Notes under the pieces: generated by a model | The model's input: only the letters and a program-made list of their open reading frames with translations | Databases searched by the model: none | Told to the model about the DNA's origin: nothing | Shown here: one piece after another, positions 4,312 through 17,195 of the stretch | Layout: every line of letters starts with the position of its first letter | How positions within the stretch are numbered: the first letter of the stretch is position 1 | IMG/VR virus record: IMGVR_UViG_3300037502_000645 | Coordinates: 1 to 20,664 of that record | Direction: 5' to 3' (one strand) | Origin: a virus | Length of the DNA stretch: 20,664 bases | Position numbers and translations under genes: made by a program

Positions 4312-6363
4312 TTATTTAACTCCTTTAAGTTGATTGATTTCTGCTTGTAAAGTTTTAACTTGCTCAGAAAGTTCTTGAACTGCTTTAATTAGCGGACTTA
4401 TAAACATTTCTCGGCTAATTGCTTGAATTGTATCTTCGCCCATATCCCAGCCAGCGAAAGTCGTTACGCCTTCAGCATCTAAAGCCGCCTTAACTTCTTG
4501 CGCCACTAAACCGTGCATGACGGTATCAATATCCCGTTTGTTTTCCTCGTTATAGTAAGGTAGGCTTGGGTCAATCTCGTTGCTGGGTTTCCATTGATAC
4601 TTGACTGGACGTAAACGGTTGATAAAAGAAAGACCAAGTGTGTCATCTTGAATGTTTCTCTTTAGTCTTTCGTCTGAGGTTTGTGTCCAAGTTGCGTTGA
4701 CTGTGTAGGCGTTGTAAATTTTTCCTGCGCCATTACCAATAGTGACATTAGTATTGGCTTGCCCTTGTACCGTATTACCAATAACAATCTGGTCTGTTGC
4801 ACCCGCTGCTGATGTGGTAGCACCACGACCTATGCAAACATTTCCTGTTCCTGTGGTTATGTTCCATCCAGCAGATGCGCCCACTCCAGTGTTGTATGAA
4901 CCTGTCGTTAAGCCAGAAAGAGCGCCTTGATAATTTGCTGTGTCTTGACTGCAACCAACAGCAGTATTGTAATTTCCAGTAGTGCATACATCCAATGATG
5001 AACGACCGAAAGCAGCATTTTCTGTACCTGTTGTATTGAGTCGCAATGCGTTGTAACCAGTGGCGGTATTGTACGCTCCAGTGGTATTTGAATATAAGGA
5101 TTGATAACCAACAGCGGTATTTTGAGATGCGGTAGTGTTAAAAAATAAAGCTATATCTCCAAAAGCGGTATTGGCAGTTCCAGTTGTATTGTTTTCAAGA
5201 GAACTCATACCTACTGCGGTATTGCTTGTTCCTGTTGTGTTGTCATATAAAGCGTATGTTCCGACACCAACTAAACGATTCCCAGTAGTGTTAAATGAAG
5301 CAGCTTGATAACCTATTACTGTGTTGTTAGATGCGGTGGTGTTATTTACAAGAACATCTTTACCAACGGCAACATTATAATTACCCGTGGTGTTGTTATA
5401 TAAACTATCCACACCAATAGCGGTATTTTCTACACCTGTCGTGTTATACCTCATTGCCCTCCAGCCAAGAGCGATGTTGTAATTACCAGTAGTGTTTTTT
5501 TCCAGTGAATAATAGCCAAAAGCACCATTACCCGTTCCAGTGGTATTTGATTGAAGTGTTTGCCTACCAAAAGCCGAGTTAAAGCCAGCCGTAGTATTAG
5601 ACTCTAGTGCTTGAAAACCAAATGCTGTGTTATCTTCACCAGTGGTGTTTGAACCAAGGGCATTTGCACCACCCGCAGTATTGTTAGAGCCAGTTGTATT
5701 TGCGTCTAGTGAATTCCGACCAATAGCCGTGTTGTTTTGACCTGTGGTGTTGGCATATAAGGATTGATAACCTACTGCTGTGTTGTTAGATGCGGTGGTG
5801 TTGAGGCGAAGTGCATCACGACCTACTGCGGTGTTATTAGAGCCTGTTGTATTAGTATAAAGAGAACGAAACCCTAAAGAAGTATTTTCTGCTCCTGTTG
5901 TGTTTGCTATCAATGCTCCAGAACCAAACGCACTATTTTGAGCGCCACTCGTATTAACATTTAACGCACCAGCACCAACGGCAGTATTATTTGCTACAGC
6001 ACCAGCACCTTTACCAACAGTAAGACCTGAGATTGTTGCGTCAGAAGTAGCAGATAGAGTAGTAAATGCACCTGTATTAGCTGTAGATGCACCGATAGGT
6101 GTATTGTTGATTGATCCACCAGAGATAACAGGGCTTGTAAAGGTATTTCCTGTAAATGCAACACCAGTAATCGTTCCACCAGTAATCTTGGCAGCAGTCA
6201 TGGTATATGTGCCATCTCTAATACCATCTCCGCAATCTCGGATCTGCGCCATCATGTCTCGCATGGTGTCGTTTACTGCCGATGGGAGCATCCCCTCTGG
6301 TGCGCCATCTGGAGGAGTTGCTGTGTTATTAGCAGGGGTTAGAGAATACTTTGTATATGCCAT
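4312..6363 (-). CDS. Tail fibre with YadA-like 17-residue repeats and S74 self-cleaving chaperone
   Basis: A 683-aa receptor-binding fibre. Residues 1-60 (MAYTKYSLTPANNTA, MLPSAVNDTMRDMMAQIRD) form the conserved tail-attachment end of many podoviral fibres. Residues 61-124 are strand-rich linker. Residues 125-464 are 20 uninterrupted 17-residue repeats of the form xNTAxGxxxLxxNTTGx, followed by two or three degenerate ones, and should fold as a trimeric beta-roll shaft. The C-terminus is a peptidase S74 intramolecular chaperone: TSDERLKRNI carries S563 and K568, the Ser-Lys dyad with the five-residue spacing of endosialidase chaperones. Cleavage before S563 would release about 121 residues after trimerisation. 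The end is a coiled coil (VQELSEQVKTLQAEINQL). AAGGAAA precedes ATG 6363. Confidence 0.93.
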   Translation of the reverse strand: MAYTKYSLTPANNTATPPDGAPEGMLPSAVNDTMRDMMAQIRDCGDGIRDGTYTMTAAKITGGTITGVAFTGNTFTSPVISGGSINNTPIGASTANTGAFTTLSATSDATISGLTVGKGAGAVANNTAVGAGALNVNTSGAQNSAFGSGALIANTTGAENTSLGFRSLYTNTTGSNNTAVGRDALRLNTTASNNTAVGYQSLYANTTGQNNTAIGRNSLDANTTGSNNTAGGANALGSNTTGEDNTAFGFQALESNTTAGFNSAFGRQTLQSNTTGTGNGAFGYYSLEKNTTGNYNIALGWRAMRYNTTGVENTAIGVDSLYNNTTGNYNVAVGKDVLVNNTTASNNTVIGYQAASFNTTGNRLVGVGTYALYDNTTGTSNTAVGMSSLENNTTGTANTAFGDIALFFNTTASQNTAVGYQSLYSNTTGAYNTATGYNALRLNTTGTENAAFGRSSLDVCTTGNYNTAVGCSQDTANYQGALSGLTTGSYNTGVGASAGWNITTGTGNVCIGRGATTSAAGATDQIVIGNTVQGQANTNVTIGNGAGKIYNAYTVNATWTQTSDERLKRNIQDDTLGLSFINRLRPVKYQWKPSNEIDPSLPYYNEENKRDIDTVMHGLVAQEVKAALDAEGVTTFAGWDMGEDTIQAISREMFISPLIKAVQELSEQVKTLQAEINQLKGVK
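4972..5991 (-). repeat. 20 tandem 51-bp coding repeats
   Basis: Each unit encodes 17 residues ending in NTTG or NTTA, with no insertion or deletion over 20 copies. Most copies differ at the DNA level, but the segments at 5305-5343 and 5764-5802 match at 37 of 39 positions and lie exactly nine units (459 bp) apart. Confidence 0.9.
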
Positions 6364-12187: not shown

Positions 12188-12985
12188 TTATCCTACGATA
12201 ATATATTTATAAGTCATGCCTGATACTGTATTAGCTGGATGGCTAATAGTGGCACTTCCGTTGGTTACTGCTGATATATAAGGTCTTGTAAATAAATTGC
12301 TTGTGTATCCGTTTGATGACAAATAACTAACTGTTGCTATAACACTAGGTGTTGATGGTCTAGTTGGTGTGCTTTGTGTTGCAAAATGTTCTAGACTGAC
12401 ACCAATATCGCTAGGTCTCCATGCTAACTGCACATAATCATCTTTTTGCAATGCAATAAAGAAGTTTATGGCTGCAATCACTCGGCTTGATGTGCCTGTC
12501 GATTTTCTTTGTGGAACACCAAATTCGCTATTACTACCTGCTACATTTGATCCATTCTTTTTAAACCAAATGCTGACCTCTTGCACATCGTTAGTCGTAT
12601 TGATTAACTGTGTTGAGAACTGAATGTTATATAGCCCTGAGTAATCTACTTTTAACTTTGTATTATCTACAAGACTAGCACCAAGGTTATAGTCTGTTGT
12701 AGAGAAAGACATAATGTTTTCTGCTGTTGTTGTTGTCGCTGCTTGATCTGTATCATCTTGAACTGCTAAATATGGGTAATACGCTGTAGCCGATACATCG
12801 TCTGTAGCCATCAACAAAATGACTGAATCTGCACCAATCCGAGCGTCTGTAATCGTTGTGGTGGATGCACCGCCTGTCGCTAGAGTTACCGACCCTGTAT
12901 TGTTGGTTTTGCCGTTCATAATCCCATTGACTACTTCGGCAACACCTCGCTGATCTGCTCCAAATGGAGGCAAAACTCGAAACAT
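12188..12985 (-). CDS. Tail-associated jelly-roll protein (C1q/TNF-like)
   Basis: A 265-aa protein. Residues 1-60 (FRVLPPFGADQRGVAEVVNGIMNGKTNNTG) form the conserved lead-in of a phage structural family. The remainder is beta-rich with the order of a C1q/TNF-like jelly roll: DYSGLYNIQFSTQL, VSIWFKKNGSNV, AINFFIALQKDDYVQLAW, SVIATVSYL. In these folds the final strand runs into a conserved hydrophobic end, as here (YKYIIVG). Such domains trimerise and bind host surfaces. It shares 1 nt with the nozzle gene (TAATG), consistent with equal production. A tail decoration or receptor-binding role is the likely one. Confidence 0.7.
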   Translation of the reverse strand: MFRVLPPFGADQRGVAEVVNGIMNGKTNNTGSVTLATGGASTTTITDARIGADSVILLMATDDVSATAYYPYLAVQDDTDQAATTTTAENIMSFSTTDYNLGASLVDNTKLKVDYSGLYNIQFSTQLINTTNDVQEVSIWFKKNGSNVAGSNSEFGVPQRKSTGTSSRVIAAINFFIALQKDDYVQLAWRPSDIGVSLEHFATQSTPTRPSTPSVIATVSYLSSNGYTSNLFTRPYISAVTNGSATISHPANTVSGMTYKYIIVG

Positions 12986-14655
12986 TATCGGCTTCCTAAC
13001 GGATTCATATCTACATCAATCCCTACTGTGTTAGTCCATTGTCCTGTAGGTGTTAATTGTAGACGATGATACCTTCCAATACCACGAATTGAGACCCTAT
13101 TTTCGCTATCTGCGACTGTCTGAGTCCCGAATACTACTTGCTCGGATAAAAGCCTTCTAGACACCAATGCGACATTCCCAGAGCCACCATCAACGATGGG
13201 CTTGGCTAAGGTAATTGCAGAAGTTACTCCAGGCATTTCAATATCGCCTGTCTCAATAATCGCTGTGTTTCCATTACCTGTAAAAGTAACGATTTTTGTA
13301 TTCTTTACACCAGCAAACTGCATCTTTCCACCTAACCATACTCGATCATCAAAGCTAGACAGAATTTGCTCTAGGTTGCCAAATACATCCATACCTTCTA
13401 AGTCAAAGGATGGTGTAGAAGAAGAAGCCACTCGGCTTGCGTCTGTAGTTCCGCTTGTCCACTTGCCTGTCTGATAATTGTAGATAAGCAATTTATCTAC
13501 AGTTGCAGAGGACTGAGAAGCATAAGCCCAAACTACTAGCTTTCTAAATGGATCTACAGCAGCCGACATTAGGCTTAACGAGCCTTCGTCTACATCACCA
13601 AAAAAGTAGCGATTAACCTTTTCGTTACCGATTGGAATTAACTGTTGCCCATCACAGGCATAAAATCCATCGTCTGATAGAAAGAATGATGTGCCACCAT
13701 ACTGAACAATAGAGTTAGCCTCATAGCATCCTAAATTACGGCTGATATTGTCGAATTGGAATACCAATGGGCTTCCAACATAAGTCATGCGATGGATAGA
13801 ACGATCCATAAATACTAGACCAAACTCACCACCTGTAAGCCCTACAATTGAGCCACCATCAGGAATATCTTGGAAATCAGCCTGTGTAGTGGCTGAGTTA
13901 GCCCAATTAGACTCATCGCCTAATGCTGACCATTGAACCCTATATGGATATACTGTAGAACTATTTACATAGCCAGAAACCACAAAATCTCGCACAACTG
14001 TTACATATCTTGACTGTGGAGCATCGGCTGCCAAGTCTTGAAATGTTGTAGAACTATTTAAGTTATATCCCTGTAAGCGATTGCCACCATTGGCTGCGAT
14101 CAATACATTACCAAATTGGGTAAATCTCCATCGTTGATTTGATGGTGTTGTGTATTGAAAACTTACTGTGCCTGTATCTGCTGTAGATCCAATGTTTCCA
14201 CCTGCCTGTGGATATGTAAATGTTGTAGTTGTTGGAACTGTATCAATAGTAAATGTGCCATTTATTGCTGTTGTAGAAGTGGCTGCTACTGTTACAGAAT
14301 CACCAATAGAAAAACCATGAGCTGCTGATGTTGTTACTGTTACAACACCGCTAGTTTTTGCCACATTGGTAATTGTTCTGCTTGCTTTAACTACAGAATC
14401 TAAAGATAGATCACTGGTATCTAACTTAAATAGTTTTGTTGCTCCTCCAGCAAAAACAATCGTAGCTCCTGCTGCGGTTTTGCCTGCCACTACATTGTTT
14501 AGGTTCTCGGATGCTGCGCCAGAGTATTCCTCGGCTGCATTGATAGCACCATAACCAATAGCTTTAGAAAAGACATTCTCTGCCTTTTGTAAGCCATTAG
14601 CTAGACCTGGCTGATCTGGAGTCCACTCTCCGAATGTGATTCGACTTATTGCCAT
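12985..14655 (-). CDS. Tail nozzle / stabilisation protein (P22 gp10-like) with an Ig-like insertion
   Basis: A 556-aa tail tube protein. GEWTPDQPGLANGLQKAENVFS (residues 9-30 region) and the following AEEYSGAASENLNN match the start of the P22 gp10 / T7 gp12 nozzle family, and the Trp/Gly-rich repeated segments after 175 (RWRFTQFGNVLIAANG, GLVFMDRSIHRMTYVG, FFLSDDGFYACDGQQLI) suit a beta-propeller platform. Between strands, residues 94-166 contain a separate Ig-like domain with the TVTTSAAHGFSIGD and INGTFTI hallmarks. Residues 422-440 carry a motif shared with the neighbouring repeat protein. The protein seals the portal-adaptor tube at the tip. The start overlaps the repeat protein's stop by 10 nt. 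Confidence 0.88.
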   Translation of the reverse strand: MAISRITFGEWTPDQPGLANGLQKAENVFSKAIGYGAINAAEEYSGAASENLNNVVAGKTAAGATIVFAGGATKLFKLDTSDLSLDSVVKASRTITNVAKTSGVVTVTTSAAHGFSIGDSVTVAATSTTAINGTFTIDTVPTTTTFTYPQAGGNIGSTADTGTVSFQYTTPSNQRWRFTQFGNVLIAANGGNRLQGYNLNSSTTFQDLAADAPQSRYVTVVRDFVVSGYVNSSTVYPYRVQWSALGDESNWANSATTQADFQDIPDGGSIVGLTGGEFGLVFMDRSIHRMTYVGSPLVFQFDNISRNLGCYEANSIVQYGGTSFFLSDDGFYACDGQQLIPIGNEKVNRYFFGDVDEGSLSLMSAAVDPFRKLVVWAYASQSSATVDKLLIYNYQTGKWTSGTTDASRVASSSTPSFDLEGMDVFGNLEQILSSFDDRVWLGGKMQFAGVKNTKIVTFTGNGNTAIIETGDIEMPGVTSAITLAKPIVDGGSGNVALVSRRLLSEQVVFGTQTVADSENRVSIRGIGRYHRLQLTPTGQWTNTVGIDVDMNPLGSR

Positions 14656-15530
14656 GTAGAAGTTCCAATATTCTTATCTGTCCAAGTGTCTGAGCTAATG
14701 CTCGTAGGTGTCCATGTTGTAGAACCGCTTGCTTCTATTACCCAAGTATCTGTAGCACTAGGTGTGGCAGTCCATGATTCTGTGCCAATGGCTTCTTCTG
14801 ACCACTCATCGCCTAATACACGACCAAAGCAATTTACTAAAACTATGCCATTTACTGTAGCGACTGCGCCATAAATAGCGACAGGATTAGCTGTAACTGT
14901 TGCTTGGCAAAATACTGAGCCATCACCACTATATTGAACACCGCCTAATGCGGTTACTGTTGCTGTTCCTGTAATGCTTCCACTTGATGTCCTAATGCGA
15001 ACACCATCTGCGCTAACTGTGCCACTTGCAGTAATTTCGCCTGTGCTTGTTCTAATTCGAATAGCATCTGCCGAGACTGAACCTTGAGCAGAGACAGACC
15101 CCACTCCTGCAAATATCCCATATCCATTAGCATCGACTGTAGCTGTTGCTGATACTGATCCAGAAGATGTTCTAACTCTGATTGCTTCTGCATTGACAGT
15201 TCCTTGTGCTGTTACTGCGCCAGATCCAAATCGAATTAGGTATGCACTACCTGTTACTGTGGCATCTGCTGTGATAGAGCCAGACGATGTTCTGATTCTA
15301 AAGGCATCAGCAATTACTGTGCCTGTGCCTGTTACAGAGGCAGATGCGCCACGAATAGCATAGGCTGTAGCACTTGCCGTTGCGTTAGCTGTAACACTAG
15401 CATCTCCGTAGTAAATACAGGTGCTTGTAGAATTCCACGCAGGGTCATCAAATGAAACAAGGATCTGCTCAAGCGTTCCAAACTGGTCAATGTTGTCAAT
15501 TGTGAACGCACCACAGTAATCTGCTGGCAT
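14646..15530 (-). CDS. Tail protein with 20-residue beta repeats and a 10-residue Trp repeat
   Basis: A 294-aa protein made of three parts. Residues 14-32 (IDQFGTLEQILVSFDDPAW) repeat a motif of the nozzle. Residues about 43-232 are nine to ten head-to-tail 20-residue repeats of the form SGSVTAxxTVxAdaxRIRTS with no indels, most likely a beta-solenoid or stacked beta-hairpin fibre. Residues 243-293 carry six tryptophans at an exact 10-residue period (W243, 253, 263, 273, 283, 293). The stop lies inside the start of the nozzle gene; its own ATG follows the previous TAA by one base and lacks a clear Shine-Dalgarno site, so it is probably coupled. A nozzle-attached fibre or spike is the best reading; composition is Ala/Thr/Ser-rich. 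Confidence 0.75.
   Translation of the reverse strand: MPADYCGAFTIDNIDQFGTLEQILVSFDDPAWNSTSTCIYYGDASVTANATASATAYAIRGASASVTGTGTVIADAFRIRTSSGSITADATVTGSAYLIRFGSGAVTAQGTVNAEAIRVRTSSGSVSATATVDANGYGIFAGVGSVSAQGSVSADAIRIRTSTGEITASGTVSADGVRIRTSSGSITGTATVTALGGVQYSGDGSVFCQATVTANPVAIYGAVATVNGIVLVNCFGRVLGDEWSEEAIGTESWTATPSATDTWVIEASGSTTWTPTSISSDTWTDKNIGTSTWQ
14652..14804 (-). repeat. Five 10-residue Trp-led repeats (30-bp units)
   Basis: Six Trp codons occur every 30 bp with no exception. The residue before each later Trp is Ser or Thr, and unit position 7 is Gly, Ala or Ser. The last Trp codon is embedded in the start of the nozzle gene. Confidence 0.85.
14835..15404 (-). repeat. Tandem 60-bp coding repeats (20-residue units)
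   Basis: About 9.5 units in perfect register, each with the Val/Ile-Thr-Ala core followed by an Arg-x-Arg-Thr-Ser turn in units 2, 4, 6 and 7. Units 3 and 5 replace the turn by LIRFG and GIFAG. The DNA copies are diverged, so the repeat is old or held by selection on structure. Confidence 0.85.
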
Positions 15531-15531
15531 A

Positions 15532-15918
15532 TTAAGCCAATGTTACTGTAAGGCTTCCTGATGCGATCTTGAAAATATCGCCTGTGTCAATTGTTTTGGA
15601 AGCATCTAACTGAGTGTGATAATACATATTGCCACCAGAAGAATTATCCCAAATACCAATATGGCTTACTGTTCCCCATGAGCCTGTAGCCTGTGGGAAT
15701 GTAATGTCTGCGCTAGTTGTGCTTGCACCGTTAGATGGTGAGCCAAAAGTAGCGGATTGGCGAGCATACGATCCACCGCTTACTTCTGTGCCTGTGCCTG
15801 CATCTGTCGGATCTGCTGTGTGCAAACTGACATAGACTGTAGCAGGGGAAGTAAAGGTTGTTGCTCGTAGAGTCGCATTGATTAGTGCGTTCTCTAGGTA
15901 GTTCGACATTTCAGCCAT
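15532..15918 (-). CDS. Small tail-associated virion protein (128 aa)
   Basis: ATG 15918 follows AAGGAAACAAA, so the first Met is preferred over Met4 (MSNYLENALINATLRATT). The sequence YLENALxNATLR, then PATVYVSLHTADPTDAGTGTEVSGGSYARQ and ITFPQATGSWGTVSHIGIWD, is one I recognise as a recurrent compact beta-sandwich protein of phage tails, usually called hypothetical or tail fibre protein. It is entirely beta-rich with no catalytic residues. It stands between the adaptor and the nozzle-linked repeat protein and may cap or decorate the tail tube. Its stop is one base before the next start (TAATATG). Confidence 0.75.
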   Translation of the reverse strand: MAEMSNYLENALINATLRATTFTSPATVYVSLHTADPTDAGTGTEVSGGSYARQSATFGSPSNGASTTSADITFPQATGSWGTVSHIGIWDNSSGGNMYYHTQLDASKTIDTGDIFKIASGSLTVTLA

Positions 15919-15927
15919 TTTGTTTCC

Positions 15928-16548
15928 TTATCGAGAAGTAATACGCATTTGAAGTGGAATCCCTGAATACTCGCCACCTTGGTCTGCATCGGAGATGTTT
16001 TTGATTGCTCGGTCGTACAAGGCTGCCCATGTCTGACTACGAGCATCGTTAATTAAATAAGGCTCTGCTTCCAACAAAGATGCGTATAAAAGTGCATCTG
16101 GATAGTTTGCCAAGAATACATTACTTGCATTTGTGTTCGACAGAATCGTTGGTTTAGCGTAGTAAAGAATCTCTAAAACATACGCTGTATCTGGAATCGG
16201 TGCGAACTCAAACTCGGAAGCCAAGATTGTGTAATACATTGGCTTACCATTCTCGTCTGCATAAGCATCTCTTGTAAATGCGCTAGGAGACATATAGGTT
16301 ACTGGCATCCTTGGATTGCCTTGGATGTGTAAATCACGAATCTCTAAGAAGTCAGTAGGTAGTGCCACCTTTGGGTCTGCACCGACCATCGTAGCAGTAG
16401 CCGACTTTAGCATTTGGCGAGTGCGCAGCTCTCTCTGGAGGCGCAATTCTGCCATGTAGATAAAGTCAGGTATTGTCGTAGTTAGATCAGACCGACCCAA
16501 GTAGCTTGCTACTGTAGTCTTTAGATCGCTGTAATTGGTAAATGGCAT
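15928..16548 (-). CDS. Head-tail adaptor (SU10-type)
   Basis: A 206-aa connector protein. The order LKTTVASYLGRSDLTTTIPDFIYMAELRLQREL (residues 9-41), LPTDFLEIRDLHIQGNP, YYTILASEFEFAPIPD and the C-terminal LEAEPYLINDARSQTWAALYDRAI is that of adaptor proteins binding below the portal in SU10-like and related short-tailed phages. It is mainly helical with a beta insertion. AAGGGTT precedes ATG 16548. It pairs logically with the SU10/DUF5309-type capsid and the P22-like portal in the same operon. Length is normal. Confidence 0.85.
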   Translation of the reverse strand: MPFTNYSDLKTTVASYLGRSDLTTTIPDFIYMAELRLQRELRTRQMLKSATATMVGADPKVALPTDFLEIRDLHIQGNPRMPVTYMSPSAFTRDAYADENGKPMYYTILASEFEFAPIPDTAYVLEILYYAKPTILSNTNASNVFLANYPDALLYASLLEAEPYLINDARSQTWAALYDRAIKNISDADQGGEYSGIPLQMRITSR

Positions 16549-16556
16549 ATTAACCC

Positions 16557-17195
16557 TTATTCTTTAGGCAGTTCAATGTTCTGCCATCCGTAAACATATT
16601 GCCCGATGTGCTTAATGTGCTTTGATAGATCGTGGTCTACCCAAGTGTCAAATCCTGCATCCTTTGCTTTAACGCAAAAGTAAATATCCTCACCTAATAT
16701 GTGGTTATTTTTTAATTGCTCAAAGTAAAAATAAGGCTTTTCTATTGCTTCTAATACTCTGCGCTTGATTAGCATTACACCACATCCAATGCCATCTGCT
16801 CTTTCAATTCCTGACAAAGCATTTGAGTAGATTGGCATCCAGTCAATTGAGCCATCTTCATTCAATCTAATGTTCTTGGCTGTTGGTTTAACTGGCTCAG
16901 ATCTTGTTGTCGCATTGACACCGATAATGTCTTTGTCGTGCGCCATCAGGATCTTTAATGTGTCCTTTGGAAACCGCATATCTGCATCTATAAACATCGC
17001 ATAGTCAGCACCAATCTCTAATGCTGTTTTTACTAAGTTATTGCGCTGGTCAAATATTAGCGTTCCTGCGCTTGTAAAGAGATCTATATCGTGTTTTGTG
17101 GTCTTGATGGTATATGCACACATCGCCACTAAATCAAACGCTGTAGCGACCTCCATTTGCCCTCTAGCGGGTATTAAAATTGCAATCCTACTCAT
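16557..17195 (-). CDS. GT-A family glycosyltransferase embedded in the structural operon
   Basis: A 212-aa family-2-type glycosyltransferase with a single nucleotide-sugar-binding fold. Visible motifs are IAILIPARGQ (residues 4-13, first strand), MFIDADMRFP with the metal-binding D70-A71-D72, GCGVMLIKR (137-145) and GEDIYFC with E169-D170 as the likely catalytic-base region, followed by a His-rich HDLSKHIKHIG (H188, H193, H196). No membrane segment is present, so the acceptor is soluble or peripheral. It lies between head genes with a 4-nt overlap upstream and an 8-nt gap downstream. Virion protein glycosylation, glycosylation of modified DNA bases or host surface modification are all possible; the sugar is not predictable. 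Confidence 0.85.
   Translation of the reverse strand: MSRIAILIPARGQMEVATAFDLVAMCAYTIKTTKHDIDLFTSAGTLIFDQRNNLVKTALEIGADYAMFIDADMRFPKDTLKILMAHDKDIIGVNATTRSEPVKPTAKNIRLNEDGSIDWMPIYSNALSGIERADGIGCGVMLIKRRVLEAIEKPYFYFEQLKNNHILGEDIYFCVKAKDAGFDTWVDHDLSKHIKHIGQYVYGWQNIELPKE

Follow-up and report, generated by a model that had tools for sequence, protein, structure and literature searches.

In the virus record IMGVR_UViG_3300037502_000645 of IMG/VR, two adjacent genes, one for a tail nozzle protein and one for a protein built largely of repeats, encode the same short motif. The question raised by this locus is whether the motif is a contact by which the two proteins hold each other, or a surface with which both bind a common partner. 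The whole stretch of DNA that was analysed, here called the window, is 20,664 bases long. Its minus-strand genes include those for a capsid protein, a head-tail adaptor, a protein similar to gp80 of the podophage GP4, the repeat protein, the nozzle, an S74 fibre and ejection-type proteins. Also on this strand, and named by reading their translations, are a portal fragment, a scaffold-like protein, a C1q-like protein and some of the ejection proteins. A glycosyltransferase-like gene, likewise recognized from its translation, lies at 16557-17195 (minus strand) between the capsid and adaptor genes, inside the structural module.

The Motif Shared by the Nozzle and the Repeat Protein

The nozzle (tail hub) protein of 556 aa is encoded at 12985-14655 and the repeat protein of 294 aa at 14646-15530, both on the minus strand. 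The stop of the repeat-protein gene and the start of the nozzle gene overlap by 10 bases (14646-14655, minus strand; ATGGCAATAA), which suggests translational coupling. Nozzle residues 422-440 (MDVFGNLEQILSSFDDRVW) and repeat-protein residues 14-32 (IDQFGTLEQILVSFDDPAW) are identical at 13 of 19 positions, as an earlier note on this DNA had reported from the sequence alone, and its statement that the DNA behind them is diverged also holds (35 of 57 bases identical). Both copies are encoded on the minus strand, and the plus strand at the same coordinates is without the motif.

The shared stretch is longer than first noted. It starts at nozzle residue 419 and repeat-protein residue 11 and consists of three units, in each of which Asp or Glu follows a hydrophobic residue; the last unit ends in an aromatic residue. 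Sequence comparison and this pattern delimit the units LEGM, LEQI and FDDRVW in the nozzle (residues 419-440; 13336-13401, minus strand) and IDNI, LEQI and FDDPAW in the repeat protein (residues 11-32; 15435-15500, minus strand), where the copy was also recognized by a nozzle-only HMM.

The likeness of the two motifs is not due to chance. The best 19-residue segment pair has 13 identities, against a maximum of 11 with the shuffled repeat protein (2000 shuffles, none of which reached 12), and the N-terminal 45 residues of the repeat protein align to the nozzle with a Smith-Waterman score of 78, against a shuffled maximum of 62 (5000 shuffles). When the repeat protein was searched against the record from which the window comes, it also matched the nozzle, at 13330-13413 with the E-value 5.6e-5. 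The Smith-Waterman score of the two whole proteins was not significant (52 of 1000 shuffles were as high), an effect of the high content of S, T and A in both proteins.

Position of the Motif in the Nozzle

The larger of the two proteins is, as judged from its predicted structure, a podophage nozzle of the SU10 / Pa223 / P22 gp10 fold. It matches phrog_3287 with the E-value 6.7e-71, and a head-tail adaptor is encoded upstream (15928-16548, minus strand), with similarity to PF24175, the SU10 adaptor family (E-value 7.1e-36), and to 9nwi_A and 7z47_A. The best fold match of the nozzle model was Pa223 9nwi_Y (Z 31.0, rmsd 2.8, 452 residues); SU10 7z4b (Z 28.3, rmsd 4.8, 473 residues) and the VP1 nozzle (Z 27.3, rmsd 3.6, 449 residues) were also matched. 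The mean pLDDT of the model is 79.7, and the stretches under 50 are residues 13-19, 153-155 and 412-445. The last of these is the single long low-confidence stretch and contains the motif; its mean pLDDT is 23-36 per block versus 70-94 in most other blocks, values that may reflect the 32-row alignment. This loop (13321-13422, minus strand) is flanked by the strands 398-403 and 448-451 and is located at the outer edge of the propeller, between the '..WNY...W' strand and the last strands. There the motif aligns with the SU10 gp17 loop carrying W839, W847 and W857, which lies between homologous strands, and LUZ24 gp56 could also be aligned.

According to the available passages of the SU10 report (PMC9509320), this SU10 loop is where the trimeric short tail fibre is held, with each Trp meeting Ile24 of one chain, and one loop fills one fibre trimer. 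The nozzle of T7 also has a fibre dock, which the accessible part of PMC6702177 describes as a domain between propeller and platform. The window nozzle is similar to that of SU10 (gp17, PDB 7z4b) in family, in fold, in the place of the loop at the propeller edge before the C-terminal platform strands, and in having three quasi-equivalent hydrophobic anchors. The SU10 anchors are three Trp residues spaced 8 and 10, whereas those of the window are Leu/Ile/Phe-Asp/Glu units with one terminal aromatic residue, spaced 9 or 10 and 7. The pseudo-threefold star of three Trp residues was not found in the window nozzle, in which only the last unit has Trp. Thus, the loop is better said to work like an SU10-type dock than to be one. 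A second copy of the dock on another SU10 protein was not seen in the available passages of PMC9509320.

The LUZ24-like nozzle (Pa223, PDB 9nwi) is the closest in fold, and the LUZ24 loop at the same place has Trp residues spaced 7 and 7. However, that loop is of the Trp-Asp type, the LUZ24 fibre has another type of N-terminus and is encoded directly upstream of the nozzle, and no repeat-protein copy of the loop was present among the LUZ24 genes examined.

Distribution of the Motif among Related Loci

The related loci are divided into four groups, named by the query: A (window-like), B (like phage record MW202462), C (like pelagiphage HTVC106P) and D (like phage C72C1). The units are spaced (9,7) in 36, (10,7) in 53 and (7,7) in 3 of 92 distinct nozzle motifs, and (9,7) in 20 and (10,7) in 15 of 35 distinct repeat-protein motifs. 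At all 83 loci where the three-unit pattern finds both motifs, to which this comparison is confined, the spacing and the aromatic class agree between the nozzle and the repeat protein: 47 have 9 and W in both, and 36 have 10, with an aromatic residue that is Y in the repeat protein and either F or Y in the nozzle.

A generic spread of the motif among unrelated proteins, which the earlier note had named as evidence against docking, was not found. The pattern gave no match in shuffled ORFs, and among 23569 non-nozzle ORFs it gave 108 matches, all within the first 130 residues, and was absent from the other ORF classes examined. A profile built only from nozzles (119 distinct segments) matched non-nozzle proteins among 23919 ORFs with a best E-value of 9.5e-7, and its matches listed below the E-value 0.02 were N-termini of the product encoded just before the nozzle. 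In the opposite direction, a phmmer search that used repeat-protein residues 1-40 as the query and the stop-to-stop ORFs of the window and 115 loci as the target returned many nozzles, the window's own with the E-value 9.2e-5. An HMM built without groups A and B recognized 29 group-B ORFs at E < 1e-3, and group A weakly, with 7 ORFs at E < 0.1 and none below 1e-3; these counts include both copies of nine contigs that two group-A locus sets have in common.

The nozzle motif is highly conserved with or without a repeat protein in the locus; of the two copies, that of the nozzle is therefore the older or the more general. It is kept at 43 group-B and 76 group-C loci that have neither a preceding dock-bearing protein nor a gp80-like gene. 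Copies in the neighbouring protein persist in groups A, B and, in more degenerate form, D. The group-A repeat-protein copies are most similar to group-A nozzles (20/20). Co-evolution of the two copies within their own genome failed in part as an expectation: 14 of 15 group-B repeat-protein copies are nearer to the group-D nozzle loops than to those of their own group.

The Repeat Protein and Its gp80-Like Neighbour

In the repeat protein, the motif precedes a repeat body (residues 43-234; 14829-15404, minus strand) in which regular beta strands are predicted with low confidence, and the protein ends in a stretch in which Trp recurs about every 10 residues (14649-14828, minus strand). The model of the whole protein is poor (mean pLDDT 45.9). 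No PHROG family was matched, and the PDB sequences gave weak matches only. DUF4097 'Toastrack' was considered for the repeat body and rejected at 19.3 bits, below the Pfam cut-off of 22.9.

Some relatives carry the motif twice. Proteins of the L086 type have two copies in tandem, and in the sister group two copies are present in 75 of 77 non-nozzle ORFs with a match, a count checked for duplicates as far as L378 and L432, which repeat contigs of L092 and L095. At the same position, the group-D proteins have triple Leu-Asp stretches of a more degenerate kind, two of them in some proteins. A search of annotated phages with the double-copy N-terminus gave two matches, both with E-values of 1 or more.

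The gene at 15532-15918 (minus strand), next to the repeat-protein gene, encodes a close relative of gp80, the fibre I protein of GP4 (PF23140, PDB 8jou; PMC13243795, available in part). The E-value is 1.6e-52 for PF23140, which spans residues 4-126 of 128 and thus the full length of the protein, and 2.6e-17 for 8jou_a. Such a gene, located between the adaptor and the nozzle, accompanies the dock-bearing protein at 131 of 131 loci, 93 of them recognized by the HMM or equal evidence (54 in group A, 35 in B, 3 in D and 1 among annotated phages) and 38, in group D and C72C1, by a less strict triple pattern. Of loci without a dock, 13 of 141 have the gp80-like gene; some of these may have a degenerate dock missed by the pattern, and other gp80-like loci without a recognized dock carry different proteins in the slot. 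These numbers refer to 272 loci with an adaptor, after 68 loci without an adaptor and one without a nozzle were dropped and nine shared contigs de-duplicated. The association is also seen within group B alone, in which 35 loci have both the dock and the gp80-like gene and 43 have neither. It is probable that the gp80-like protein ties the repeat protein to the collar and leaves its N-terminus free to hold something.

A Candidate Fibre Partner

The candidate for the docked partner in the window is the S74-type tail fibre encoded at 4312-6363 (minus strand; PF13884, phrog_4636). Its N-terminal segment (6199-6363, minus strand) is of the 'NNT...EG..PS.vN..R..MAQI' type, here called the EG type. 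The fibre also contains a long run of NTTG..NTA.G repeats, which we take to resemble the head repeats of trimeric autotransporters.

The fibre N-terminus NNT..EG..PS.vN..R..MAQI was found once per record in 25 of 29 viral records, which represent groups A to D; the four records without a match are 15 to 20 kb in length. Eight bacterial bins were left uncounted because their contigs are fragmented. Four of them (G030, G033, G035 and G036) have a strong match, G034 a weak one (E-value 0.0056), G032 and G037 a match only at 0.1 and 0.64, and G031 none.

Among 23 hand-chosen annotated phages, with loop classes assigned by eye and with Rhizobium phage N3_2 and Bradyrhizobium phage ppBeUSDA76-2 as loose members, the EG-type fibre is carried by 13/13 phages with a Leu-Asp loop and by 0/10 phages with a related nozzle without that loop. 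Twenty-one of the 23 were taken from the 141 matches of one search, JB8 from another search and SU10 by accession; MW202544 was left out, as its record length and scores were the same as those of MW202462, and most of the other matches were Pseudomonas phages. In the five annotated phages with Trp-type loops (5/5), the fibre has a different N-terminus and is encoded directly upstream of the nozzle. The association of loop and fibre type is confounded by kinship: on the nozzle tree the Leu-Asp-loop phages form almost one clade, in which ctDrO704 stands without the loop and without the fibre type, so that few independent changes are represented. Fisher's p of 8.7e-7 ignores this kinship and is not usable as a test. 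With hhalign, no homology was found between the profile of the fibre N-terminus and the N-termini of SU10 gp16 and LUZ24 gp57; thus, co-occurrence is the only basis for assigning the partner. Nothing usable was returned when the PDB was searched with this profile.

A Proposed Second Fibre Dock and Its Alternatives

In the reading preferred here, to which we give a probability of about 0.5, the nozzle motif serves as a loop for docking a fibre, and the repeat protein carries a copy that holds the same fibre, as an accessory arm. The nozzle loop, at the outer edge of the propeller, would offer a trimeric fibre one quasi-equivalent hydrophobic-acidic unit for each of its three chains, and the fibre gripped in these phages would be the one with the 'EG..PS.vN' N-terminus. 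The N-terminus of the repeat protein, with one copy of the dock or two in the sister group, could hold the same fibre. The GP4-fibre-I-like protein would tether the repeat protein to the tail collar, and the repeat protein, as a putative part of the virion, would act as an arm that multiplies or branches the fibres. One fibre gene served by two or three docks would raise the number or the reach of the fibres. The weakest steps are that this fibre is the partner and that the repeat protein is part of the virion.

The proposal of a duplicated docking module in the earlier note is supported: a nozzle loop that is not confidently folded in the model aligns with the SU10 fibre dock, and one or two copies appear to be carried by the neighbouring protein. 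Between the two uses that the note had offered for it, the common partner is favoured, because within each phage both copies have the same units, the same spacing and the same class of terminal aromatic residue, a likeness expected of two ligands that share one receptor. Attachment of the repeat protein to the nozzle fits less well. A homotypic contact, in which the N-terminal motif packs against the nozzle loop or replaces it, would suit the adjacent, overlapping genes, the match of both copies at all 83 loci, and the position of the SU10 short tail fibre gene just before the nozzle. However, partners need not look alike, two copies per chain are difficult to explain, and the loop conserved in the 43 group-B and 76 group-C nozzles without the neighbour has another job; direct attachment is considered unlikely. 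It is less likely still that the N-terminal dock is a decoy or chaperone that keeps free fibre trimers capped until they pass to the nozzle, rather than an appendage anchor. Such a role would agree with the optional presence of the repeat-protein gene and, because one SU10 loop fills one trimer (PMC9509320, as available in part), with the inability of a fibre held by the repeat protein to hold the nozzle as well. What points instead to a structural part is that the repeat protein strictly accompanies a relative of GP4 gp80, a virion protein, and has a long repetitive body.

Two further explanations dispense with docking by the repeat protein. That its copy is a relic of duplication, or a product of gene conversion between neighbours, is improbable. 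The genes are adjacent, and the resemblance of group-A copies to group-A nozzles would follow from such an origin, but the DNA has diverged while the residues and their spacing are kept, and copies persist in groups A, B and D and are doubled in one lineage. Very little weight is given to convergence on a structural element buried in each protein. The strong conservation of the hydrophobic positions speaks for it; on the other hand, the nozzle model shows this stretch between edge strands and without a confident fold, the motif of the repeat protein stands ahead of the repeat body, and the pattern is absent from the other ORF classes examined.

A broader form of the accessory-arm reading, which is held tentatively and at somewhat less than even odds, is that of a portable single-chain quasi-threefold dock: the nozzle loop would have been copied, once or twice, onto a collar-tethered protein, and one fibre gene would fill the docks of both tail and arm. 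If so, the fibre number could change through the gain or loss of a small cassette of a gp80-like gene and a dock-bearing repeat protein, without a new fibre gene, and a phage could gain fibre attachment points by copying a 22-residue loop. The accessory-arm reading would also provide a short readable sequence code for the attachment sites of trimeric fibres on short-tailed phages, connect the type of nozzle loop with the type of fibre in uncultivated phages of freshwater and the sea, and give candidate functions to the repeat protein, which has no PHROG family, and to its gp80-like neighbour.

A functional precedent, compared only as such, is found in phage CBA120. According to the accessible part of PMC8825819, the docking module of T4 gp10 is reused on TSP4 (XD2/XD3) to hold further fibres, giving a branched complex. 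Those modules are folded trimeric domains in another kind of phage, whereas the present case would concern podophages and a loop of one chain, about 22 residues long. A description of a second fibre dock of the present type was not recognized in the literature searched, which was covered in part through listings and passages, and no claim is made that it is unpublished.

Variation in the Repeat-Protein Slot

Relatives of the repeat protein without the dock are gp51 of Methylophilales phage Venkman and ctXG6705, and some group-A upstream proteins likewise are without it. The Trp-repeat C-terminal tail varies in copy number by phage and is kept in Venkman gp51 and ctXG6705 despite the replacement of their N-terminal dock, and it perhaps serves as a second element for binding. 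At L104:3482-4198 and L105:2630-3406, relatives of the repeat protein have another N-terminus of the MFGICSFSQAPFSSL type, and another gene is located beside the nozzle; the N-terminal module thus seems exchangeable. In L063, L067 and L068, other large proteins of the MADRYWVGGSGSWD type occupy the slot between the gp80-like gene and the nozzle, which may therefore hold exchangeable appendages. In L025 and L074, an extra ORF (MAISIKTL.QE.LKEWL), HNH-like as read from its translation, is inserted between the repeat protein and the nozzle.
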